Translations under genes and position numbers: made by a program | In this document: positions 1 to 8,349 of the stretch, one piece after another | Position numbering within the stretch: position 1 is the stretch's first letter | Layout: each line of letters begins with the position of its first letter | Assembly (NCBI GenBank): GCA_031267675.1 | Contig: JAIRYT010000102.1 | Span: 1 to 42,403, forward strand | DNA from: Treponema sp. | Lineage (GTDB): Bacteria; Spirochaetota; Spirochaetia; Treponematales; Breznakiellaceae | Length of the DNA stretch: 42,403 bases | Reading direction: 5' to 3' | The notes under the pieces: model-generated | The model's input: the letters and a program-made list of their open reading frames with translations, nothing else | The model's database searches: none | Told to the model about the DNA's origin: nothing

Positions 1-2
1 TT

Positions 3-203
3 CATATTTGTCAAAATCATCCGTTTATTGACGGAAATAAACGTGTTGCGTTAACAAGTTCGTTGGTATTTTTAGACATTAACGGTTATACATTTAACTG
101 TAAAGAAGAAATAATATATAATAAAATCATAGATGTGGCAAAAGGTGAGTTGAAAAAAGAAGATTTGATAAAATATTATGAAAAACATTCAAAGAAGAAA
201 TAA
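3..203 (+). CDS. Doc/Fic-family toxin, 3' end only (5' truncated by window)
   Basis: The reading frame is open from base 3 to the TAA at 201-203 and gives the last 66 residues. It contains HPFIDGNKR near the start, the Fic/Doc active-site motif with Lys in place of the Gly of AMPylating Fic proteins (GNK instead of GNG). This is the signature of Doc-type toxins of type II toxin-antitoxin pairs; the phage P1 Doc enzyme is a kinase of EF-Tu. The antitoxin, if present, would lie upstream outside the window. The gene is AT-rich and ends 19 bp before an attC-like element, so it may be an integron-type cassette gene. The family call is firm from the motif; the substrate is inferred from the family. 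Confidence 0.85.
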   Translation, partial: HICQNHPFIDGNKRVALTSSLVFLDINGYTFNCKEEIIYNKIIDVAKGELKKEDLIKYYEKHSKKK

Positions 204-222
204 TTGTAAAAAGCGGTACGTC

Positions 223-389
223 GTATAACAGGTCTGTATATGCTTCGCCGCCGCAGGCGGCTCGGGGTTTATTCGCCTGGGTCGCTTTGCTCCCACGCTC
301 CGCTCCACTCACATTTTTGCAGCCCTGGTCTTGCTACGCAAGCCCTTATTCGGGCTGCAAAAACGCCATATACAGCCGGAACGTTAGGC
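223..389. repeat. attC-like recombination site (integron-type dyad element)
   Basis: A 167-bp imperfect palindrome. Read on the minus strand it opens with GCCTAAC (fits the R'' consensus RYYYAAC) and closes with GTTATAC (R'-like). Inner arms CTGTATATG (234-242) and CATATACAG (367-375) are perfectly complementary. A second pair, TTTTTGCAGCCC (314-325) and GGGCTGCAAAAA (352-363), forms a 12-bp stem capped by a smaller CTTGC/GCAAG hairpin. The R''-like heptamer overlaps the TAA stop of the minus-strand gene at 384, as is usual for gene cassettes. Similar core sequences recur at 1103-1109 and 2457-2463. No integrase is in the window, so the attC identity is inferred. Confidence 0.55.
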
Positions 390-614
390 ACCCGGTTGTT
401 TATGAGGTTTTTGCCGTTTGCTTAAATATGCTATATATGTGCATTCATAAAAAATAAATGCAAATATCATTCCTCCAATGATAAAAAAAACCCGATCAAA
501 ATTTTCATTGCTATTTTGTGATAATAGAAACAAAAGAAAATTGGAAATACCTATAGTTACTATTGGTAAACAGGTTATCGGTATAAGAATTCTTGCCATA
601 ATACCTGCATCCAA
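384..614 (-). CDS. Small hypothetical membrane protein (possibly the frameshifted tail of the upstream gene)
   Basis: Up to 76 residues if translation begins at a TTG (614); 71 residues from the first ATG (599). Two hydrophobic segments are visible (about residues 9-29 and 44-62), then a basic tail. No family is recognised. There is no Shine-Dalgarno sequence, and the frame is open upstream of 614 into the end of the preceding gene (641-1048) without a better start. It may therefore be the C-terminal part of one longer membrane protein interrupted by a frameshift at the T-run near 645-649, or a translationally coupled partner. Its stop codon sits inside the attC-like element. AT-rich. Confidence 0.45.
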   Translation of the reverse strand: MDAGIMARILIPITCLPIVTIGISNFLLFLLSQNSNENFDRVFFIIGGMIFAFIFYECTYIAYLSKRQKPHKQPGA

Positions 615-640
615 TTTTTTTATTTCAACCAGCGCTATTG

Positions 641-1048
641 CTATATTAAAAACAATATTATAAATATTTGTATAATTACAATTCCGATAAAACCAATAGA
701 AATATTAAAACTCGTTCCTAAATAAAAAAATATTGTACCAGAAAATATTTTTAAAAATACCGCGTATGCAATTATATAAAATAAACATTTTGCAAGTATC
801 TTTTTTGTGGGATCGCGCCTATTCAACAATATTATCCAGACCAAAAATAATGTTCCAATGATACATAAAACCTTACCAATATCTTCAATCCACATGGTTT
901 TATTCTTTGTCATTTCAAAAATCAAGGTAATATCTGAAATGACAGCCAAAAATAGTATCGAAGTTATTGTTTTAACATTTAATCCCGAAAATTGATGGTA
1001 AAGATACATTACAAGTATTAATATGCCCGCCGACAGGTATAATTTCAT
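641..1048 (-). CDS. Hypothetical multi-pass membrane protein
   Basis: 135 residues with four or five hydrophobic segments and almost no loops; unrecognised family. The frame also allows an ATG at 1087, but I prefer the ATG at 1048. A TTGACA -35 box, 17-bp spacer and TATCTT -10 box end exactly 6 nt before it, so transcription should begin at this ATG, and from here the protein begins directly with a signal-anchor-like hydrophobic stretch. Neither start has a Shine-Dalgarno sequence. The downstream gene at 384-614 begins 26 nt further on and may be its frameshifted continuation. Low GC, cassette-like location. Confidence 0.5.
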   Translation of the reverse strand: MKLYLSAGILILVMYLYHQFSGLNVKTITSILFLAVISDITLIFEMTKNKTMWIEDIGKVLCIIGTLFLVWIILLNRRDPTKKILAKCLFYIIAYAVFLKIFSGTIFFYLGTSFNISIGFIGIVIIQIFIILFLI

Positions 1049-1054
1049 TTTATG

Positions 1055-1083
1055 AAGATACCATATTGATAATTTTTTGTCAA
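1055..1083 (-). promoter_or_regulatory. Predicted sigma70 promoter, leaderless geometry
   Basis: TTGACA (1078-1083), 17-bp spacer, TATCTT (1055-1060), both on the minus strand. The -10 box ends 6 nt before the ATG at 1048, so the expected transcript starts at the start codon. Confidence 0.5.
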
Positions 1084-1090
1084 CCATTTA

Positions 1091-1128
1091 GGCGCAAACG
1101 CCACATAACGTTCCGGTGTGTATGCGCC
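1091..1128. repeat. Short attC-like / half-site dyad
   Basis: GGCGCA (1091-1096) pairs with TGCGCC (1123-1128); between them CACA...TGTG flank ACATAAC followed by GTTCCGG. The string TAACGTTCCGG is shared with the minus strand of the 223-389 element, so this is a degenerate or half copy of the same family. It separates the gene starting at 1048 from the stop of the gene at 1134. Too short for a full attC with both boxes. Confidence 0.4.
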
Positions 1129-1133
1129 GATTT

Positions 1134-1907
1134 TTATATATTTTTTACAATTATTTCCTTTATTACTGCAAAATATTCACGGACATAATAATTTACTAAT
1201 AAAATACGCGGGCTTTTACTGGCAAGTGTATATATATTTTTATATCCTATCTTTTTTGCAATACTTTTTGCGCGAAATAGATGAAACTCTGACGATACAA
1301 TCAGGACTTTTTTATTATAATCGTTTATTATTTCTCCGGAGTATTTTAAATTTTCCAATGTGTTTCTTGACTTGTCTTCTAAAACAATATGTTCGGCGCT
1401 TATGCCGTTATTTTGCAACACATTTGATATAACTTCTGCTTCGGATATATCTTCATCTCTTCCCCTTCCGCCGCTGACAATTATTTTAGTGTTTTGATTT
1501 AGTTTCAAATAGTCTATTGCCGTATTTATTCTTCTTGTAAGTGTCAAAGACGGATTTTTCCCATTCAGTCCGGCCCCCAGTAGTATAATATAATCCGCAT
1601 TTTCCACCTGATTTGTTTTGGCGTTATTTATTACATTAATTTCTATCAAAATAAATGATAATGAAAAAATAAAAGCTATAACTAAAAATAGTATTCGAAT
1701 AATTTTATGTTTTAATATTTTGTATATACGTTTCCTGAAAACAGTAACTGCTATTAATGCCAATCCGGAGAAAAGCCATATCAGATTAAACATATTCAAA
1801 TAACCAATAAAGCCGGTTATTGCCATAAAGTACCATATACAAATTATGCTTAGACCTATAAACAGTAAATTTTTGAATTTATCGATTATTTTCAACAACA
1901 CATTCAT
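1134..1907 (-). CDS. YdcF/SanA/ElyC-like (DUF218) membrane protein
   Basis: 257 residues. The N-terminal third holds about three membrane segments (roughly residues 13-35, 38-55, 68-90). It is followed by a DUF218 domain with IILLGAGLNGKNPSLTLTRR, IIVSGGRGRDEDISEAE, LEDKSRNTLENL and VSSEFHLFRAKSIA, the conserved stations of this fold (acidic and Arg/His residues of the pocket). Members such as SanA and ElyC affect envelope permeability or peptidoglycan/lipid carrier metabolism; the reaction is unknown. ATG at 1907 is preceded by GGAGACGGG and a good promoter at 1961-1989, so the gene has its own normal leader. It lies in the AT-rich cassette-like region and is probably acquired. Confidence 0.8.
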   Translation of the reverse strand: MNVLLKIIDKFKNLLFIGLSIICIWYFMAITGFIGYLNMFNLIWLFSGLALIAVTVFRKRIYKILKHKIIRILFLVIAFIFSLSFILIEINVINNAKTNQVENADYIILLGAGLNGKNPSLTLTRRINTAIDYLKLNQNTKIIVSGGRGRDEDISEAEVISNVLQNNGISAEHIVLEDKSRNTLENLKYSGEIINDYNKKVLIVSSEFHLFRAKSIAKKIGYKNIYTLASKSPRILLVNYYVREYFAVIKEIIVKNI

Positions 1908-1960
1908 TTTTCCCGTCTCCTTTGGTATCGTTATATAGTATTTGCAGCCCTTTCTTTTTG

Positions 1961-1989
1961 AATATAGATCATCTTGATTCGTTTGTCAA
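1961..1989 (-). promoter_or_regulatory. Predicted sigma70 promoter of the YdcF-like gene
   Basis: TTGACA (1984-1989), 17-bp spacer, TATATT (1961-1966), minus strand. The predicted start is near 1954, giving a leader of about 45 nt that contains AAAGGAGAC before the ATG at 1907. Confidence 0.65.
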
Positions 1990-2007
1990 CCATTTTTTTA
2001 CACTTTA

Positions 2008-2442
2008 TTAAACGTATTTATATTTTATATAATATTGATTAGCCTCGTCAAGAGAAATAATCTCATTTTTATGAATCATATTACCATTATTAAATTTAAT
2101 TGTTATTTTTCCGCAAAAATTTACCCTGATTAATTTTTTTACCAATTCGACACAATAATTGTTTCTTTCATTGGCATTTAATGAATGGAAAAATAATAAC
2201 GATCCATTACTGTCAAATATTAACAACATAATAAAATCCTTTTTTACAATGTGACCATGATTTTTGGACGAATTTTGAGGTTCATAATAGATTGGTAATT
2301 GATGAATATTTAAAATTTCTATTTTTTGAATATCACATAAATTATAATAATTCCGTGAAAACAATGATTTTTTTATTAGAAGATGGTTCGTTAAGACAAC
2401 TTTTTTATTAAAATATAATGAAATTACAAGATTGCTTTCCAT
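2008..2442 (-). CDS. Hypothetical protein
   Basis: 144 residues, no recognised family. It is lysine- and asparagine-rich like the rest of the AT-rich region. The N-terminal half looks like alternating beta strands (LVISLYF, VVLTNHLLI, IMLLIF, LLFFHSL) followed by an amphipathic helix (residues ~92-106) and two more strands, an order reminiscent of pleckstrin-like PH folds; this is only a guess from pattern. No signal peptide or membrane segment. ATG at 2442; a TTGACA (about 2472-2477) and a TATAAT-like box lie immediately upstream within the attC-like core, with a spacer of about 20 bp if both are used, and TATAAT ends only a few nt before the ATG. Confidence 0.55.
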   Translation of the reverse strand: MESNLVISLYFNKKVVLTNHLLIKKSLFSRNYYNLCDIQKIEILNIHQLPIYYEPQNSSKNHGHIVKKDFIMLLIFDSNGSLLFFHSLNANERNNYCVELVKKLIRVNFCGKITIKFNNGNMIHKNEIISLDEANQYYIKYKYV

Positions 2443-2456
2443 TCAATTATATTGCA

Positions 2457-2785
2457 GCATAACGAAAAAAATGTCAAATGGTATTGCGCCTGACAGGTCT
2501 GTTTCCGCTCCGCCGCGCTCCCCGGGGTTCAGTCGCCTGGGTCAGTCGCGTCCCGGCTGCGCCGGGGAACTTTCCTCGGCTCCTTCCCCATTTGGACCGG
2601 GCGGGTGCCGCGCAGGACTGTTTACACTTCGGCTGCTTCGGCGGCTCGGCCTCCGTAACGGCTAAGTCATTACGCTACGCTCCATTCCCGCGCCGTTGCT
2701 CAGGCACATTTTGCCGGCCATGGTCTTTGCCGCGCAAGGCCCGCGAGGGAACCATTATGCGGAATGTATAACCCTGTTCTTGTGG
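2457..2785. repeat. Large dyad/repeat element related to the 223-389 attC-like site; no gene seen
   Basis: This covers most of the gene-free stretch 2443-2897. It starts with GCATAAC (2457-2463), the third copy of the RYATAAC core. Two tandem half-copies begin CAGGTCTGTTTCCGC (2501) and CAGGACTGTTTACAC (about 2608), each followed by GC-rich runs like those after CAGGTCTGTATATGC in the first element. The right part matches it too (ATGGTCTTTGCCGCGCAAGG versus CTGGTCTTGCTACGCAAG). It ends with GCGGAATGTATAACC. Short open frames here are repeat artefacts. From 2786 to 2860 I see nothing. Confidence 0.5.
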
Positions 2786-2860
2786 GTTGCGCCGTTGGTG
2801 AGCTTGGGTTAAAACGGGAATTGCCGGTAAACTCCGGGGGGACAAAACTCCGGGGCGGAC

Positions 2861-2889
2861 TTGACAAAGCGGCAATTTTTTTTTAGCAT
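2861..2889 (+). promoter_or_regulatory. Predicted sigma70 promoter of pilZ gene, near-leaderless
   Basis: TTGACA (2861-2866), 17-bp spacer containing a T-run, TAGCAT (2884-2889). The ATG at 2898 begins 8 nt after the -10 box, leaving at most a two- or three-base leader and no Shine-Dalgarno sequence. Confidence 0.6.
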
Positions 2890-2897
2890 ACCGGGCG

Positions 2898-3242
2898 ATG
2901 TATAATTCAGACAAACGAAAGAACCGCCGGTATTCCTCGATTGCCAGGGCAAAACTGGCGGGCGTTTCTTTTGGCGAGGCCCTGTTAAAAGATATAAGCG
3001 TTACCGGCGCGTGTATCGAATATACCATGCATCTTGATATCGAAGCAAAAAGCCGCTACACACTCGAAATAATCCCGGAAGAAGTAAGCAGTATCCGGCC
3101 CTTTCTTTTGACGGTGGAATGTAAATGGATTCGGCAGGCCGGATATTCCTGCGACGCCGGTTTTGATATTATCAAATCGCCCAAGGGCAAAGCGTTTGAG
3201 AACTATGTAGACTACCTTGACTGGCGCTCAAACCAGAATTGA
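2898..3242 (+). CDS. PilZ-domain c-di-GMP receptor
   Basis: 114 residues, a stand-alone PilZ domain. The first binding motif RxxxR is R7-K-N-R-R11 and the second, D/NxSxxG, is D32-I-S-V-T-G37; a beta-barrel-like pattern follows, ending about residue 100. Such proteins bind cyclic di-GMP and alter a partner protein, in spirochaetes typically motility or envelope functions; the partner is not evident here. It is the first gene of a plus-strand run with two rRNA methyltransferase-like genes and overlaps the next frame by 26 bp. A diguanylate cyclase lies 5 kb away (8395-9891). Confidence 0.85.
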   Translation: MYNSDKRKNRRYSSIARAKLAGVSFGEALLKDISVTGACIEYTMHLDIEAKSRYTLEIIPEEVSSIRPFLLTVECKWIRQAGYSCDAGFDIIKSPKGKAFENYVDYLDWRSNQN

Positions 3243-4239
3243 CCGGCAAAAGGCTCCTTCCGGCGGCATATTCCCCGGACAGCTTGTGTATCAAAGCATT
3301 GACGGCTTTGCGGATCACCTTGAATACGAATTAAATAGTTTGGGTTCCTGCGGGCGGGAAGCGTGCTGGTCTATATTGGGCGGCCCGCTTTACGCGGCGA
3401 ATATAAATACGAGTGCGGCGAACGGAATATTTTGGTATCGTAATCGATGGCTTGAACCGTTTATCGTTGAGTTTGATTCAATAAACCATGCGGCAGACGC
3501 CCTGCGGGCGATACAGCGGAACTGGGCCCAGACGCCGGCTGCCTGTTTTAGACGCGCCGCGCTCATTGGCAAAAAACTGCCGCCGATTTCGGCAAAGCCA
3601 AAAGCCTTTCCCTGGACGCTGCCGCAGACGCCAATGGGGGCCTGGGCGCTGCTTGATGAACATACGATGATTGCGAGCGCCCGCTGTACCAGTCCCTTTC
3701 CCTCGGGAATGCCGCGTTTTGCCGAAACACGACACGCGCCCAGCCGCGCGTATTTAAAGCTGTGGGAGGCGCTTACGCTCTGCCGCGCCTGGCCCGGTCC
3801 CGGCAGTGTATGTCTTGACGCGGGCGCAAGTCCGGGCGGCTGGACCTGGGCGCTTTCGCAACTTGGCGCGGAGGTTACCGCGGTTGATCGCGCGGAACTT
3901 GAGGGAGAAGCCGCGTCAGCGGCAAAGCGGTTTATCAAGCATGACGCGTTTACCCTTACGCCCGGCGATATCGGGAGCGTTGACTGGCTTTTCTGCGATG
4001 CCGCCTGTTATCCCGGACGGCTTTACCGCTGGATCGAAACATGGCTCGAAAGCGGTCTTTGCAAAAATTTTATCTGTACCATAAAAATGCAGGGCGTTCC
4101 CGGCCGCGAAGGATCGGAGCCGGATTTTGAAACACCCCGGCTTTTTGCCGCCGTGCGCGAAAGCCGCGTTGTTCATCTGTATCATAATAAACATGAACTT
4201 ACCTGGATCAAATTGGCGGCGGATTCAACACAAAGTTAA
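3217..4239 (+). CDS. RlmM-like 23S rRNA 2'-O-ribose methyltransferase (FtsJ fold)
   Basis: 340 residues from a TTG that lies inside the 3' end of the PilZ gene; the next in-frame candidate is a GTG at residue 24, so the N-terminus is uncertain. The SAM-binding loop is D201-A-G-A-S-P-G-G208, and the K-D-K-E tetrad of 2'-O-methyltransferases is visible: K181 (in RAYLKLWEA), D261 (FCDAAC), K290 (TIKMQG), E327 (HELTW). The DLGASPGGW and SRxxLKLxEA arrangement matches RlmM, which methylates C2498 of 23S rRNA in E. coli; the N-terminal ~150 residues would be the THUMP-like part. The exact target here is inferred. Confidence 0.75.
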   Translation: MTGAQTRIDRQKAPSGGIFPGQLVYQSIDGFADHLEYELNSLGSCGREACWSILGGPLYAANINTSAANGIFWYRNRWLEPFIVEFDSINHAADALRAIQRNWAQTPAACFRRAALIGKKLPPISAKPKAFPWTLPQTPMGAWALLDEHTMIASARCTSPFPSGMPRFAETRHAPSRAYLKLWEALTLCRAWPGPGSVCLDAGASPGGWTWALSQLGAEVTAVDRAELEGEAASAAKRFIKHDAFTLTPGDIGSVDWLFCDAACYPGRLYRWIETWLESGLCKNFICTIKMQGVPGREGSEPDFETPRLFAAVRESRVVHLYHNKHELTWIKLAADSTQS

Positions 4240-4257
4240 AAAATATGGTATGTTAGA

Positions 4258-5436
4258 ATGATGAATTACAATGCGGTGGCGCTTTGCGCGGTAGGAGCGG
4301 AGAAGGTTCTTGCCAATGAACTGCGCCGTTTAAATAAAACATCCGGCAGCGGAACAACATACACCATTTTGGAAAGCGCCTATGGCAAAGTGCGTTTTTC
4401 GGCCGGACTTTCGGGAATCTATCGCGCGCTTATGGCGCTTCGCTGCGCGGACCGCGTATTACTTGAAGCGGGGCGCTTTTCCGCCGCCGGTTTTGACGAG
4501 CTTTTTGAAGGCGCGGCCGCAATTCCCTGGGAAGAATATGTACCCCGGGGCATGGGCCTCAAGATCAATAAAGTACGAACAAACCGTTCCGCGCTCAAGG
4601 CGGAAACGGCGATACAGGGATCGGTGCACAAGGCGGCCGCCCAGCGGCTCTGCGGCAAATACGGGGTGAACCGTCTGCCCGAGGGGCCGCCGCAGGCCGA
4701 ACTGCGCGTCTATATAGAAAAAGATGAAGCTTCCGTACTGCTCGATTTGTCGGGCGATCCGCTGTTTAAAAGGGGATACCGCCGCGAAGGCGGGCCCGCG
4801 CCGCTCAGGGAAACCAGCGCCGCCGCGATAATTTTACTTTCGGGATGGAAGCGAAAGTTTGCGCTGTACGACCCCCTTTGCGGCTCCGGTACAATCGCGC
4901 TTGAGGCGGCGCTGTATGCCTGGAACGCCGCGCCCGGCCTGGGGCGGCAGTTTGCTGTTTCCCGCCTGAATATTGCTTCGCCGGATGCCGAAGCGTCCGT
5001 ACGCGAAGAGCTAAAAGCGGCTGTCGATGTTACGCGCGAGATACGCATCCGCGGCAGCGACTTTGACAAATCCTCGGTGACGCTGGCAAAACGGAATCTG
5101 GAATATGCGGCAAAGATTGCGTTTTCCGGCGTGGAAGATGCGGCAAAATGCGTGAATTTTGAATGCCTTCCGCTTTCCGATGCAAAGCCGCCCGATGAAC
5201 CGGCGGGATTTGTCATTACCAATCCGCCGTACGGAAAGCGCCTGGGCGATACCGCCGGAGCGGAAGCGGGGTACCGCGAAATGTCCGTGCTCGCAAAAAA
5301 TTTTACCGGATGGAAACTGGCTGTTATTTGCGACAACAAAGACTTTGAGTCGCACTTTGGTAAAAAGGCAAATTCACGCCAAAATTTTAAAAACGGCGCG
5401 CTGGATACGCTTTTATATGAATACGAAAAATTGTAA
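4258..5436 (+). CDS. RlmL-like 23S rRNA m2G methyltransferase (THUMP + class I MTase)
   Basis: 392 residues. The N-terminal ~160 residues are a THUMP-type RNA-binding region. The catalytic domain follows, with DPLCGSGT (205-212) for SAM and NPPYG (322-326), the motif of base N-methyltransferases. The layout equals the N-terminal half of E. coli RlmKL (m2G2445) without the RlmK half, the usual form outside gamma-proteobacteria. It starts 18 bp after the RlmM-like gene; two ATG codons in tandem at 4258 make the exact start ambiguous. Together the two genes suggest co-ordinated modification of the peptidyl-transferase region of 23S rRNA (C2498 and G2445 in E. coli). Confidence 0.82.
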   Translation: MMNYNAVALCAVGAEKVLANELRRLNKTSGSGTTYTILESAYGKVRFSAGLSGIYRALMALRCADRVLLEAGRFSAAGFDELFEGAAAIPWEEYVPRGMGLKINKVRTNRSALKAETAIQGSVHKAAAQRLCGKYGVNRLPEGPPQAELRVYIEKDEASVLLDLSGDPLFKRGYRREGGPAPLRETSAAAIILLSGWKRKFALYDPLCGSGTIALEAALYAWNAAPGLGRQFAVSRLNIASPDAEASVREELKAAVDVTREIRIRGSDFDKSSVTLAKRNLEYAAKIAFSGVEDAAKCVNFECLPLSDAKPPDEPAGFVITNPPYGKRLGDTAGAEAGYREMSVLAKNFTGWKLAVICDNKDFESHFGKKANSRQNFKNGALDTLLYEYEKL

Positions 5437-5460
5437 TTCAGAAAAAGGGATTATTGTAAA

Positions 5461-6042
5461 ATGGCGGTAATGGTTGAGCACGAAAAACGATTCCAGGAGA
5501 TTTTGGAAAAGTCCCTGGATGTTTTTATTTCCCTGGGCTTTGAAGACGCGACGTACCAAAAAATAGCCGAAAAGTGCAAAATTAACCGTACGACGCTCTA
5601 TCTTTACTTTCGAAACAAGCGCGAAATTTTTAATTACAGCATCAAACAGCTTATGGCAAAAATGGAAAGCGACATAAGCGCGGTACAAAAAAACGATAAT
5701 TTGACCTACCCGGAAAAAATTACCCAAATGCTTTTCTTTATCCTTGACCGCATCGAAGAACACCGCCGTCTGCTCCAGGTTGTTTTAAGCACGCTGCTTC
5801 CCGCAAAAGATCCGGACACCCGCGTTAAAAGGCGTACCGTTAAAATGCGGCATATTCTTGCCTCTGCGGTAATTGACGGCATAAAGGCCGGCCAAATAAA
5901 AAAACGCGCGGTACATACCATTGACGAATTATTTAACAGCCTTATTGACGCGGCGTTGTACCGCCTGGTAATACTCAAGCGCAAGAGTATTTCGGAGCTA
6001 AAAGCGGTAATTGATCTTTCGGTAAAAAATTTAAGCGTATAG
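5461..6042 (+). CDS. TetR/AcrR-family transcriptional regulator
   Basis: 193 residues. The N-terminal helix-turn-helix is clear: residues about 10-55 with FISLGFEDATYQKIAEKC followed by INRTTLYLYFRNKREIF, the recognition helix motif of TetR proteins (TLYxYFxxKxE). The C-terminal ligand-binding part is helical and unassigned. It begins 24 bp after the RlmL-like gene with a weak AAAGGG box 12 nt upstream of the ATG, so it may be cotranscribed. No obvious target or efflux gene is adjacent; the convergent gene downstream is separated by the SRP RNA. Confidence 0.85.
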   Translation: MAVMVEHEKRFQEILEKSLDVFISLGFEDATYQKIAEKCKINRTTLYLYFRNKREIFNYSIKQLMAKMESDISAVQKNDNLTYPEKITQMLFFILDRIEEHRRLLQVVLSTLLPAKDPDTRVKRRTVKMRHILASAVIDGIKAGQIKKRAVHTIDELFNSLIDAALYRLVILKRKSISELKAVIDLSVKNLSV

Positions 6043-6053
6043 ACCGTTTTGGC

Positions 6054-6166
6054 AAAACCCCGCCGCCAGGAGGGCTACGGCGCGGGAACCAACCGCTTGC
6101 CGCTGCTTCCTTCCGGACCTGACGGGGTTGGGCGGCGATTCCCCGCATAGTTCCTGGCGAGGAGGC
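6054..6166 (-). ncRNA. ffs: Signal recognition particle RNA (4.5S type)
   Basis: The minus strand carries the universal SRP core GTCAGGTCCGGAAGGAAGCA, with the GGAA tetraloop and flanking asymmetric loops that bind Ffh. Outer strands close into one long hairpin: GCCAGGA (6158-6152) pairs with TCCTGGC (6071-6065), and the terminal CCTCCTC pairs with GGCGGGG (6064-6058) with one mismatch. A TTTT run at 6057-6054 follows. The predicted transcript start from the upstream promoter is G6166, giving about 113 nt: a short bacterial SRP RNA without Alu domain. It fills the gap between the TetR gene and pdxK. The SRP receptor gene ftsY is also in this window (38161-39027). Confidence 0.92.
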
Positions 6167-6172
6167 ATGCTG

Positions 6173-6202
6173 ATTATACGCCCGGATTGCCCCCAAGGTC
6201 AA
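6173..6202 (-). promoter_or_regulatory. Promoter of SRP RNA gene
   Basis: TTGACC (6197-6202), 18-bp spacer, perfect TATAAT (6173-6178), minus strand. The -10 box places the start at 6166, the first base of the folded RNA. Confidence 0.8.
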
Positions 6203-6254
6203 GCGCACGCGTTGACGGAGGGAGGTAGAGATGGGGATGAACCTGCGCGGCGAA

Positions 6255-7070
6255 TCACTCAAACAGCCGGTCTTTTCTCCAGGCGCTCGGGTTCCCCGGC
6301 CCGACCCATTGATTAAGGGGAAAGCCGGCGCCAAGGCTCGAACCGATAAATTTTTTTGCAAGCGTTACCGCCTCCCCTGCGGAAAGGCCGCGGGCCAGAC
6401 CGGAACTTATCGCCGCCGCGACGGTACAGCCCGCGCCGTGGGTCCACTGGGTGTTGAACAAATCCCCCTCCACAATGCTAAAGGTTTTTCCGTCATAAAA
6501 AATATCCGTAGCCCTGACCGCCGAAGGGAGTTTGGAACCTCCCTTGATAAATACCTGGCGGGCGCCTTTCCCGGCGATACGTTTTGCCGCTTCTTTCATC
6601 GCGTCAATGCTGGTAATCTCGCCCAGTCCGGAAAGCTGCCCGGCCTCAAAAAGATTGGGTGTGGCCACTTCGGCAAGCGGCAGCAATTTTTGGGCGATGG
6701 CGGCGTTAAGTTCAGGGCTTAACGGCTGGCCCGCTCCCTTGCAGACCATTACCGGATCAAGCACAAAGTTTTTTAGTTTGTATTCGCTTATATATTCGCG
6801 TGTCAGTTCAACAGCGTAGGGCGTTCCCAGCATGCCCGATTTAACCGCCGCCGGTTTAACTCCCTTAAAAATGGTTTCAAGCTGTGAGCGAAGGGCCGTT
6901 TCCTCAATGGGAAAGACCGCGTGCGACCAATTGTTTGAAGGATCCATTGTTGCGATTATGGTAACGGCGGCCATACCGTAAAGGCCGTATTCGGCAAAAG
7001 TTTTAAGGTCCGCTTCAAGGCCCGCTCCCCCCGAAGCGTCCGAACCGGCTATGGTTGCAATTTTGATCAT
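6255..7070 (-). CDS. pdxK: Pyridoxine/pyridoxal kinase, ThiD-like type
   Basis: 271 residues, ribokinase fold. It phosphorylates B6 vitamers, with possible activity on hydroxymethylpyrimidine. S10-D-A-S-G-G-A-G opens the protein, DPVMVCKGAG is in the middle, and THGAGCT is the nucleotide/anion-hole motif. The whole sequence follows the Bacillus subtilis PdxK type, including the C-terminal FPLNQWVGPG; in that lineage the protein was once called ThiD. The frame is open to 7184, but the ATG at 7070 has AAAGGAGATG at the right distance and matches the family N-terminus. Monocistronic, with its own promoter at 7124-7153. No thiamine genes are adjacent. Confidence 0.85.
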   Translation of the reverse strand: MIKIATIAGSDASGGAGLEADLKTFAEYGLYGMAAVTIIATMDPSNNWSHAVFPIEETALRSQLETIFKGVKPAAVKSGMLGTPYAVELTREYISEYKLKNFVLDPVMVCKGAGQPLSPELNAAIAQKLLPLAEVATPNLFEAGQLSGLGEITSIDAMKEAAKRIAGKGARQVFIKGGSKLPSAVRATDIFYDGKTFSIVEGDLFNTQWTHGAGCTVAAAISSGLARGLSAGEAVTLAKKFIGSSLGAGFPLNQWVGPGNPSAWRKDRLFE

Positions 7071-7123
7071 TTTTGCATCTCCTTTATACCGGGACCAAAG
7101 CCTCCGGCTAGATTTTATATCCA

Positions 7124-7153
7124 AGTATAACGATGTATATACAAGGAAATCAA
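7124..7153 (-). promoter_or_regulatory. Predicted promoter of pdxK
   Basis: TTGATT (7148-7153), 18-bp spacer, TATACT (7124-7129), minus strand. The leader is about 45 nt and holds the Shine-Dalgarno AAAGGAG. A TGTATATACA palindrome lies in the spacer and could be an operator. Confidence 0.55.
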
Positions 7154-7272: not shown

Positions 7273-8349
7273 TTAGAGCGATTTTCCATCAGCCCCGATT
7301 TTGCCCGAATCCCCGTTGATCAAAAAACGCTGATAATTCGGCGGATTTCCGGAGAGCGTGTCGCCGTACAACAGGGGAATGCCGGGCAGCATAATCATCA
7401 TGTTTATGTTTGCCGCAGGATTGGCGGTCAAAGCGCCGGAAAGGGTGATCCTGGCGCCGCTTCCCAGGCTTACCGCGTTATCGGGCGTCACCACGGCGGA
7501 TTCGCTCATGGTAAAAGAAACCAAACCACTGTCGGCATACACGCCGTCGCCGGCGCTGGCAGAAATATTTTTGCTGATGGTTCCTCCCCTCATGATAAAA
7601 GAGGTGCCGTTGCCGGTAACAAACACGCCGCCGCCGTTACCAAGAGCCGTGTTCCCGCTGATGGCGCCGCCTGTCATGGTAAAGGTTCCTTTGGTAATAT
7701 ACACGCCGCCGCCGGTGCTCGCGGCCGTGTTCCCGCTGATAGCGCCGCCGTTCATGATAAAGGTTCCGCCGGCAATATGTACGGCGCCGCGGCCGGTTGC
7801 CGTATTCCTGCTGATAACGCCGCCGTTCATGGTAAAGGTTCCGCCGGTGTCAATGGAGACAGCGCCGCAGGTGCCGGCGCCGTTTCGTAGTTCAGCCCCC
7901 CTGTTCAGGGTAAGATGTGCCGAACTCCCCCCAATATTGATCAGCCCGCCGGCGCCAACGCCGCCGCCGTCCAGAATCAGGGTTCCCTTGTTCCGGTCGG
8001 TTCCCAGGGTAAGGCGTCCGCCGATCACGGTAAACAACGCGCTTGTCCCTTCCCGGCGGATATGGACAGTCCGGCCGTCGCGGTAGGCCTCCAGGGTAAT
8101 GGCTTTTGAGCTGTTTACGGCTATGGCGGCGGGAATCGTAATGTCGCACATCACGGTAAAGGTGCGCCCGCCGGATGCGCCGGCTATGGCGTCCGCCAGT
8201 TCTTTTCCGCTGGTAATGGGGTGGACAGAAAGATTGTACTCAATGTCTTCTTTAAGGGGGGCGTTAAGCTGTTCACAGCCGGAAGCAAAGAAGATGCCAA
8301 GGAAGGGAAGAAGGAAAAACCTGTTCCAGCCCGTCATACTGGCTCTCAT
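7273..8349 (-). CDS. Surface/periplasmic lipoprotein with beta-helix repeats
   Basis: 358 residues from the ATG at 8349. Signal peptide with lipobox FFASGC, lipidated Cys25. Residues ~150-270 carry about five tandem repeats built on GGTFTMNGGAISGNTA with GGxVY/GGxVF between them, typical of right-handed parallel beta-helix (pectate-lyase-like) proteins. No catalytic residues can be assigned, so a structural or adhesive role is as likely as polysaccharide binding. A promoter at 8356-8385 ends 6 nt before this ATG, which decides the start over TTG 8355 or ATG 8337. The repeat unit could vary in number by slippage. Confidence 0.75.
   Translation of the reverse strand: MRASMTGWNRFFLLPFLGIFFASGCEQLNAPLKEDIEYNLSVHPITSGKELADAIAGASGGRTFTVMCDITIPAAIAVNSSKAITLEAYRDGRTVHIRREGTSALFTVIGGRLTLGTDRNKGTLILDGGGVGAGGLINIGGSSAHLTLNRGAELRNGAGTCGAVSIDTGGTFTMNGGVISRNTATGRGAVHIAGGTFIMNGGAISGNTAASTGGGVYITKGTFTMTGGAISGNTALGNGGGVFVTGNGTSFIMRGGTISKNISASAGDGVYADSGLVSFTMSESAVVTPDNAVSLGSGARITLSGALTANPAANINMMIMLPGIPLLYGDTLSGNPPNYQRFLINGDSGKIGADGKSL

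Follow-up and report, generated by a model that had tools for sequence, protein, structure and literature searches.

The hairpin-forming element near the left end of the window is, judged from sequence comparison, very probably the attC site of a Doc toxin-antitoxin cassette and part of a family-wide integron-like system with a linked integrase other than IntI. The window, 42,403 nucleotides long, makes up the whole of contig C34; the draft genome comprises 2.49 Mb in 110 contigs and is 88% complete. By its sites, cassettes and layout the system would be an integron, but by its integrase it would not. We consider it likely that this is a second integron lineage in the Treponematales, run by an XerA-related tyrosine recombinase that lacks the additional domain (I2) of the classical integron integrase and captures attC cassettes.

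Structure and surroundings of the attC element

The original prediction described a 167-bp dyad at positions 223 to 389 with attC-like boxes, matching arms and an extruded 12-bp stem. These coordinates are exact, and all parts of the element could be located (Table 1). As is typical of attC sites, the R''/R' and L''/L' boxes pair with each other and contain the AAC and GTT triplets. When the bottom strand is folded as DNA, the R and L stems form and one L'' base is left out; such an extrahelical base is the feature associated with bottom-strand preference in attC sites. Crossover would take place at G^TT in the R' box, and the bases 3' of R' (GTTAGGCACC) are part of the next cassette, whichever came after. 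The stop codon of the adjacent minus-strand ORF had been noted to lie inside one of the boxes, which is indeed the case, the box being named R' here. An Rfam search returned no family at the attC site. Compared with shuffled sequences, the fold of the window copy alone is modestly unusual (z of -1.8 for the top and -2.7 for the bottom strand), so that comparative evidence has to decide.

Table 1 Features of the window, with positions counted from its first letter.
Feature	Position	Strand	Basis or remark
attC, whole modelled element	220-391	+	164.7 bits, E 2e-39 with R1, built partly on this copy; further copies by blastn; bottom-strand hairpin
R'' box GTCGTATAAC	220-229	+	core GTATAAC at 223-229
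Complement of R'', GTTATACGAC, start expected for the Doc cassette	220-229		9/10 against start of C41 homologue, GTTATGCGAC
L'' box GGTCTGTATATG, one extrahelical base (T233)	231-242	+	fold; copy alignment
Extruded hairpin of the variable terminal structure	314-363	+	12-bp stem, 314-325 TTTTTGCAGCCC / 352-363 GGGCTGCAAAAA
L' box CATATACAGCC	367-377	+	fold; sequence reading
Spacer GGAAC	between L' and R'	+	sequence reading
R' box GTTAGGC	383-389	+	sequence reading
3' part of Fic/Doc toxin gene, predicted cassette gene of the window attC, cut by contig end	3-203	+	
Minus-strand ORF without assigned function, stop in R'	384-614	-	ORF list; Pfam
Lone L'-R' half-site core (CCGGAACGTTATGTGG), remnant or single site	1101-1116	-	sequence reading
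Two degenerate attC remnants (R''/L'' at ~2486 and ~2609)	2480-2770	+	blastn; sequence reading
Bacterial small SRP RNA gene	6061-6159	-	Rfam RF00169, 68.5 bits
Tandem repeats of ~78 nt within coding region	7537-7845		

The toxin gene fragment to the left of the element matches Fic in Pfam (4.5e-06) and a Doc-like toxin in PHROG (2.6e-17), and is 94% identical to a copy on contig C41 of the same genome. The fuller cassette found there begins with GTTATGCGAC and encodes an AbrB/MazE-like antitoxin followed by Doc, after which comes R'' with the sequence GTCGTATAAC. The earlier proposal of a Doc-type toxin belonging to a toxin-antitoxin cassette is thus borne out by this homologue. A comparison of the two Doc cassettes (C41 locus L044 and window positions 1 to 266), made in search of a footprint, showed 94% identity that extends about 46 bases into attC, beyond which the attC bodies diverge; this mosaic is not the product of a simple R' crossover. 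To the right of the window attC, minus-strand ORFs, a DUF218 gene, the half-site and the two degenerate attC follow, and chromosomal genes begin near position 2,898.

A search for further copies, proposed together with the original prediction, yielded 45 copies or fragments in the same genome by blastn and 40 matches at E<=0.01 with a covariance model, R1, built on 12 aligned own-genome copies including that of the window. In the 12-copy alignment, 90.0% of cells hold standard pairs, compared with 80.5% when letters are shuffled and 32-41% when pairing partners are slid by 1-3 columns, the pairing structure itself having been derived from folds of the same copies. Double-sided changes are seen in 53 cells, where shuffles give 25.9, and many of the compensatory changes fall in helices 4 and 5, that is, in the extruded hairpin. 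In a comparison set of one genome per species, with 119 relatives searched, R1 matched 59 of the family's roughly 72 genomes, the own genome being counted, and one genome among those searched from other families of the order. The copies, the covariance model and the arrays found in relatives support the reading of the hairpin as a probable attC, the site where gene cassettes recombine in an integron-like system by which gut-type spirochaetes capture genes.

Cassette arrays and attI sites in relatives

The single-contig genome G035 carries 42 attC on one strand between positions 3,521,955 and 3,560,488 (39 kb), located directly behind a tyrosine recombinase gene. Genome G040, also a single contig, likewise contains an array of a single orientation. 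Among the first 30 complete cassettes of G035, 28 have their longest ORF on the attC (plus) strand, and these ORFs often stop 5-30 bases short of attC. The remaining two cassettes are about 300 bp long and have no ORF. Nine cassette products of G035 were compared with Pfam and comprise two GNAT acetyltransferases, a HicB-like protein, a RibD_C and a NUDIX protein, a weak VCA0040-like match and three proteins without match. At locus L089 of genome G031 (183-7135), the array is reversed, its R' boxes facing the 3' end of the integrase gene, which is opposite to the other loci read.

Cassettes start with GTT, mostly GTTA (GTTRRRY type), the reverse complement of the R'' box of their own attC. In a set of 77 cassettes taken from several genomes, agreement between a cassette's own start and the complement of R'' averaged 6.43 of 7 variable bases, compared with 4.49 for the next start. 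The own start was the better match in 62 cassettes and the worse one in 2, and 0 of 10,000 permutations were as good. This complementarity is the trace expected when cassettes are excised and re-inserted at the G^TT of R'. For the window cassette, the rule was checked via the C41 homologue only (Table 1). A detector working without a model, by the same logic only, returned 23 cases on the G035 plus strand and 0 in three Markov controls. With DNA folding parameters, the bottom strand was the more stable one in 89 of 90 attC, by a mean of ~6 kcal/mol, compared with 24 of 60 for control DNA of the array.

In the relatives, an attI-like platform adjoins the integrase gene. A GTTA[TGA]RY box is located 43-500 nt 3' of the integrase stop codon in 14 of 21 loci, against a background of 0.4 per kb. 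Among nine loci with a readable first attC, the attI sequence predicted by the R''-complement rule was found in 8, agreeing with the complement of the first attC R'' at 9-10 of 10 bases (G035, G040, G067, G052, G044, G020, G056 and G019); the ninth, G021, has a degenerate first R''. Six integrase loci with enough flanking sequence yielded no attI (G045, G050, G002, G033, G064 and G005). At the G045 locus (L095), a tRNA-like sequence, recognized by eye, is found 3' of the integrase at the expected attI position.

These observations also bear on the idea that the element is a palindromic intergenic repeat of the REP or MITE type, similar to attC by chance. Dispersal, hairpin formation and AT-rich surroundings would fit such a repeat, but the relation between own start and R'', attI, arrays on one strand spaced by single genes and the strand bias would all be unexpected, and the 77-cassette test already contradicts it, making this explanation extremely improbable. 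Instead, the complementarity rule, the bottom-strand bias, the preserved fold and attI point to recombination of a folded bottom strand at G^TT. In such a cycle, the bottom strand of attC would fold into the bulged hairpin serving as substrate, and the tyrosine recombinase, presumably the I2-less enzyme encoded next to the arrays, would cut R' at G^TT. A circular cassette would be released, its attC joining its own start and R'', and would be inserted again either into another attC or into the attI that adjoins the integrase gene, so that single-gene cassettes are moved.

A tyrosine recombinase without the I2 domain

In the course of its evolution, the integron integrase gained a small extra domain that enables recombination of folded single-stranded DNA; published work treats this domain as both necessary and unique (PMC7790495, PMC9024848). 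The tyrosine recombinase encoded immediately upstream of the arrays consists of an N-terminal extension of ~110 residues, a SAM-like core-binding domain and a Phage_integrase domain. Its catalytic residues R247, K272, H337, R340, H363 and Y372 (R-K-H-R-H-Y, G040 numbering) are invariant in 15 aligned integrases. The G040 integrase scores 215.1 bits against the XerA-type model NF040815 of NCBIfam (cut-off 220) and, in two stretches, 203.8 bits against the integron integrase model TIGR02249, below its cut-off of 265. The GKGxKDR and LRHxFAT motifs lie 61-62 residues apart, compared with 102-103 in the IntI proteins of Treponema and of other phyla. This short spacing indicates that the additional domain is absent, and the alignment shows a gap; no I2 helix is found between the catalytic K and HxxR. 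The best relative of solved structure by sequence is VchIntIA (IntI4, PDB ID: 2a3v; E 1.8e-56), the match being broken into two stretches at the IntI additional domain.

In phylogenetic trees, the I2-less family forms a clade with 100/100 support, outside the IntI clade (100/100), and groups with recombinases from other Treponematales families with a support of 97/96. Most of these other-family recombinases carry an R box 219-528 nt downstream. XerA-type recombinases (NF040815) of Bacteroidota and Archaea share the catalytic core, also lack I2 and in many Bacteroidota have a similar N-terminal extension. However, the R1 model found no attC in the flanks of 80 XerA-type and IntI relative loci elsewhere, and no claim is thus made beyond the Treponematales. 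An N-terminal extension with a W....W.IP-type motif is common to I2-less integrases, Treponema IntI and XerA-type recombinases, as seen in the 15 aligned integrases (A3), Treponema IntI and loci L105, L106, L109, L111 and L113. Given its resemblance to that of Treponema IntI, the extension alone does not explain how the enzyme would do without I2. In the single-contig genome G030, broken integrase copies (L191 and L193) lie near a few attC, apparently a decaying system.

The arrays could also have been made by a classical IntI, lost in the meantime, with the I2-less neighbor being a bystander or acting on double-stranded L'-R' sites only. Four family genomes and others in the order indeed contain classical IntI, and I2 has been called necessary for cassette capture (PMC7790495). 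However, R1-type attC were not found in these four IntI-bearing genomes, and no genome of the family has both enzymes in full length. G035 and G040 contain no IntI, yet have intact arrays and an attI adjoining the I2-less gene, this gene is linked to attI-like sites in other families too, and the catalytic residues are retained in 15 divergent copies. We therefore regard a lost IntI as unlikely and favor the I2-less recombinase as the enzyme moving the cassettes. One genome (loci L210, in G104, and L063) encodes, on separate contigs, a classical IntI and an I2-less integrase that has its own attI-like site and attC.

Chromosomal integrons have been described in Treponema denticola, T. vincentii, T. 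succinifaciens and T. brennaborense (PMC3607928). They share with the present system the attC R and L boxes, the protruding base, R' boxes of the GTTAGG type, an attI following an integrase gene that is transcribed in the direction of the array, cassettes of one gene each and, in some species, long attC. They differ in their integrase, an IntI with the additional domain, whereas the recombinases described here form a separate I2-less clade. A search of the open literature, with subscription papers and preprints outside its coverage, found no report of an I2-less integron.

Dispersed sites in the genome of the window and implications

In the genome to which the window belongs, attC copies are spread over ~30 contigs. 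Some 15 contigs of 10 kb or longer have an attC close to one end, and several single copies lie in contig interiors; single attC or remnants are for example seen inside the long contigs C46, C47, C57, C85, C51, C5, C105 and C19. The presence of attC at many contig ends as well as in interiors suggests that cassettes are dispersed around the chromosome, unlike the single array of G035. A profile search of the assembly found neither IntI nor the I2-less integrase, an attI platform is absent, and arrays are present as fragments only. As evidence against an integron, the original prediction had named a missing intI with no other copies near cassette-like genes, or copies scattered at random. For this assembly the outcome is mixed, with intI missing and the copies spread over many contigs, but in complete relatives oriented arrays lie behind an integrase and attI. 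With no integrase in the assembly, the window site is either a leftover of the CALIN type, or its integrase is located in the unassembled part, the missing 12%, of the genome.

It is quite possible, though somewhat less probable than the opposite, that the elements of this genome represent common dispersed repeats, or else dead remnants of cassettes, and are now immobile. The many degenerate copies, the missing integrase and the distribution of attC over contig ends and interiors would agree with this. Compensatory changes nevertheless keep the fold, the Doc cassette is found in two copies in different contexts and with different attC bodies, and the assembly, just 88% complete, is broken at attC repeats.

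The two best matches to TIGR02249 in this genome were considered as integrase candidates and turned out to be XerC and XerD, encoded in a topA-dprA-hslVU locus. These host recombinases are present and mechanistically related, but their genes belong to the core genome, with topA, dprA and hslVU as neighbors, and are unlinked to arrays, and attI adjoins a dedicated recombinase. It is thus very improbable that XerC/XerD perform the recombination, and the dedicated I2-less enzyme remains the preferred candidate.

Clusters of attC without an integron integrase are known as CALINs, a term from IntegronFinder. As assembled, the genome of the window, with attC and no IntI, would be classed as such. 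The relatives differ in having an adjacent integrase, which would be rejected by profiles requiring the extra domain of IntI. This domain has been said to let IntI be easily told from other integrases (PMC9024848). If the second lineage is real, some CALINs would be complete integrons with an unrecognized integrase.

A working integron without I2 would break the rule and provide a natural experiment on the origin of the activity: single-strand cassette recombination would then have evolved on two occasions, or I2 would not be the enabling domain. Wu et al. 2013 (PMC3607928) report integrons in oral, bovine and swine treponemes and none in the termite-gut species T. primitia and T. azotonutricium. 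If correct, our interpretation would reverse this published view of termite-gut treponemes as integron-free.
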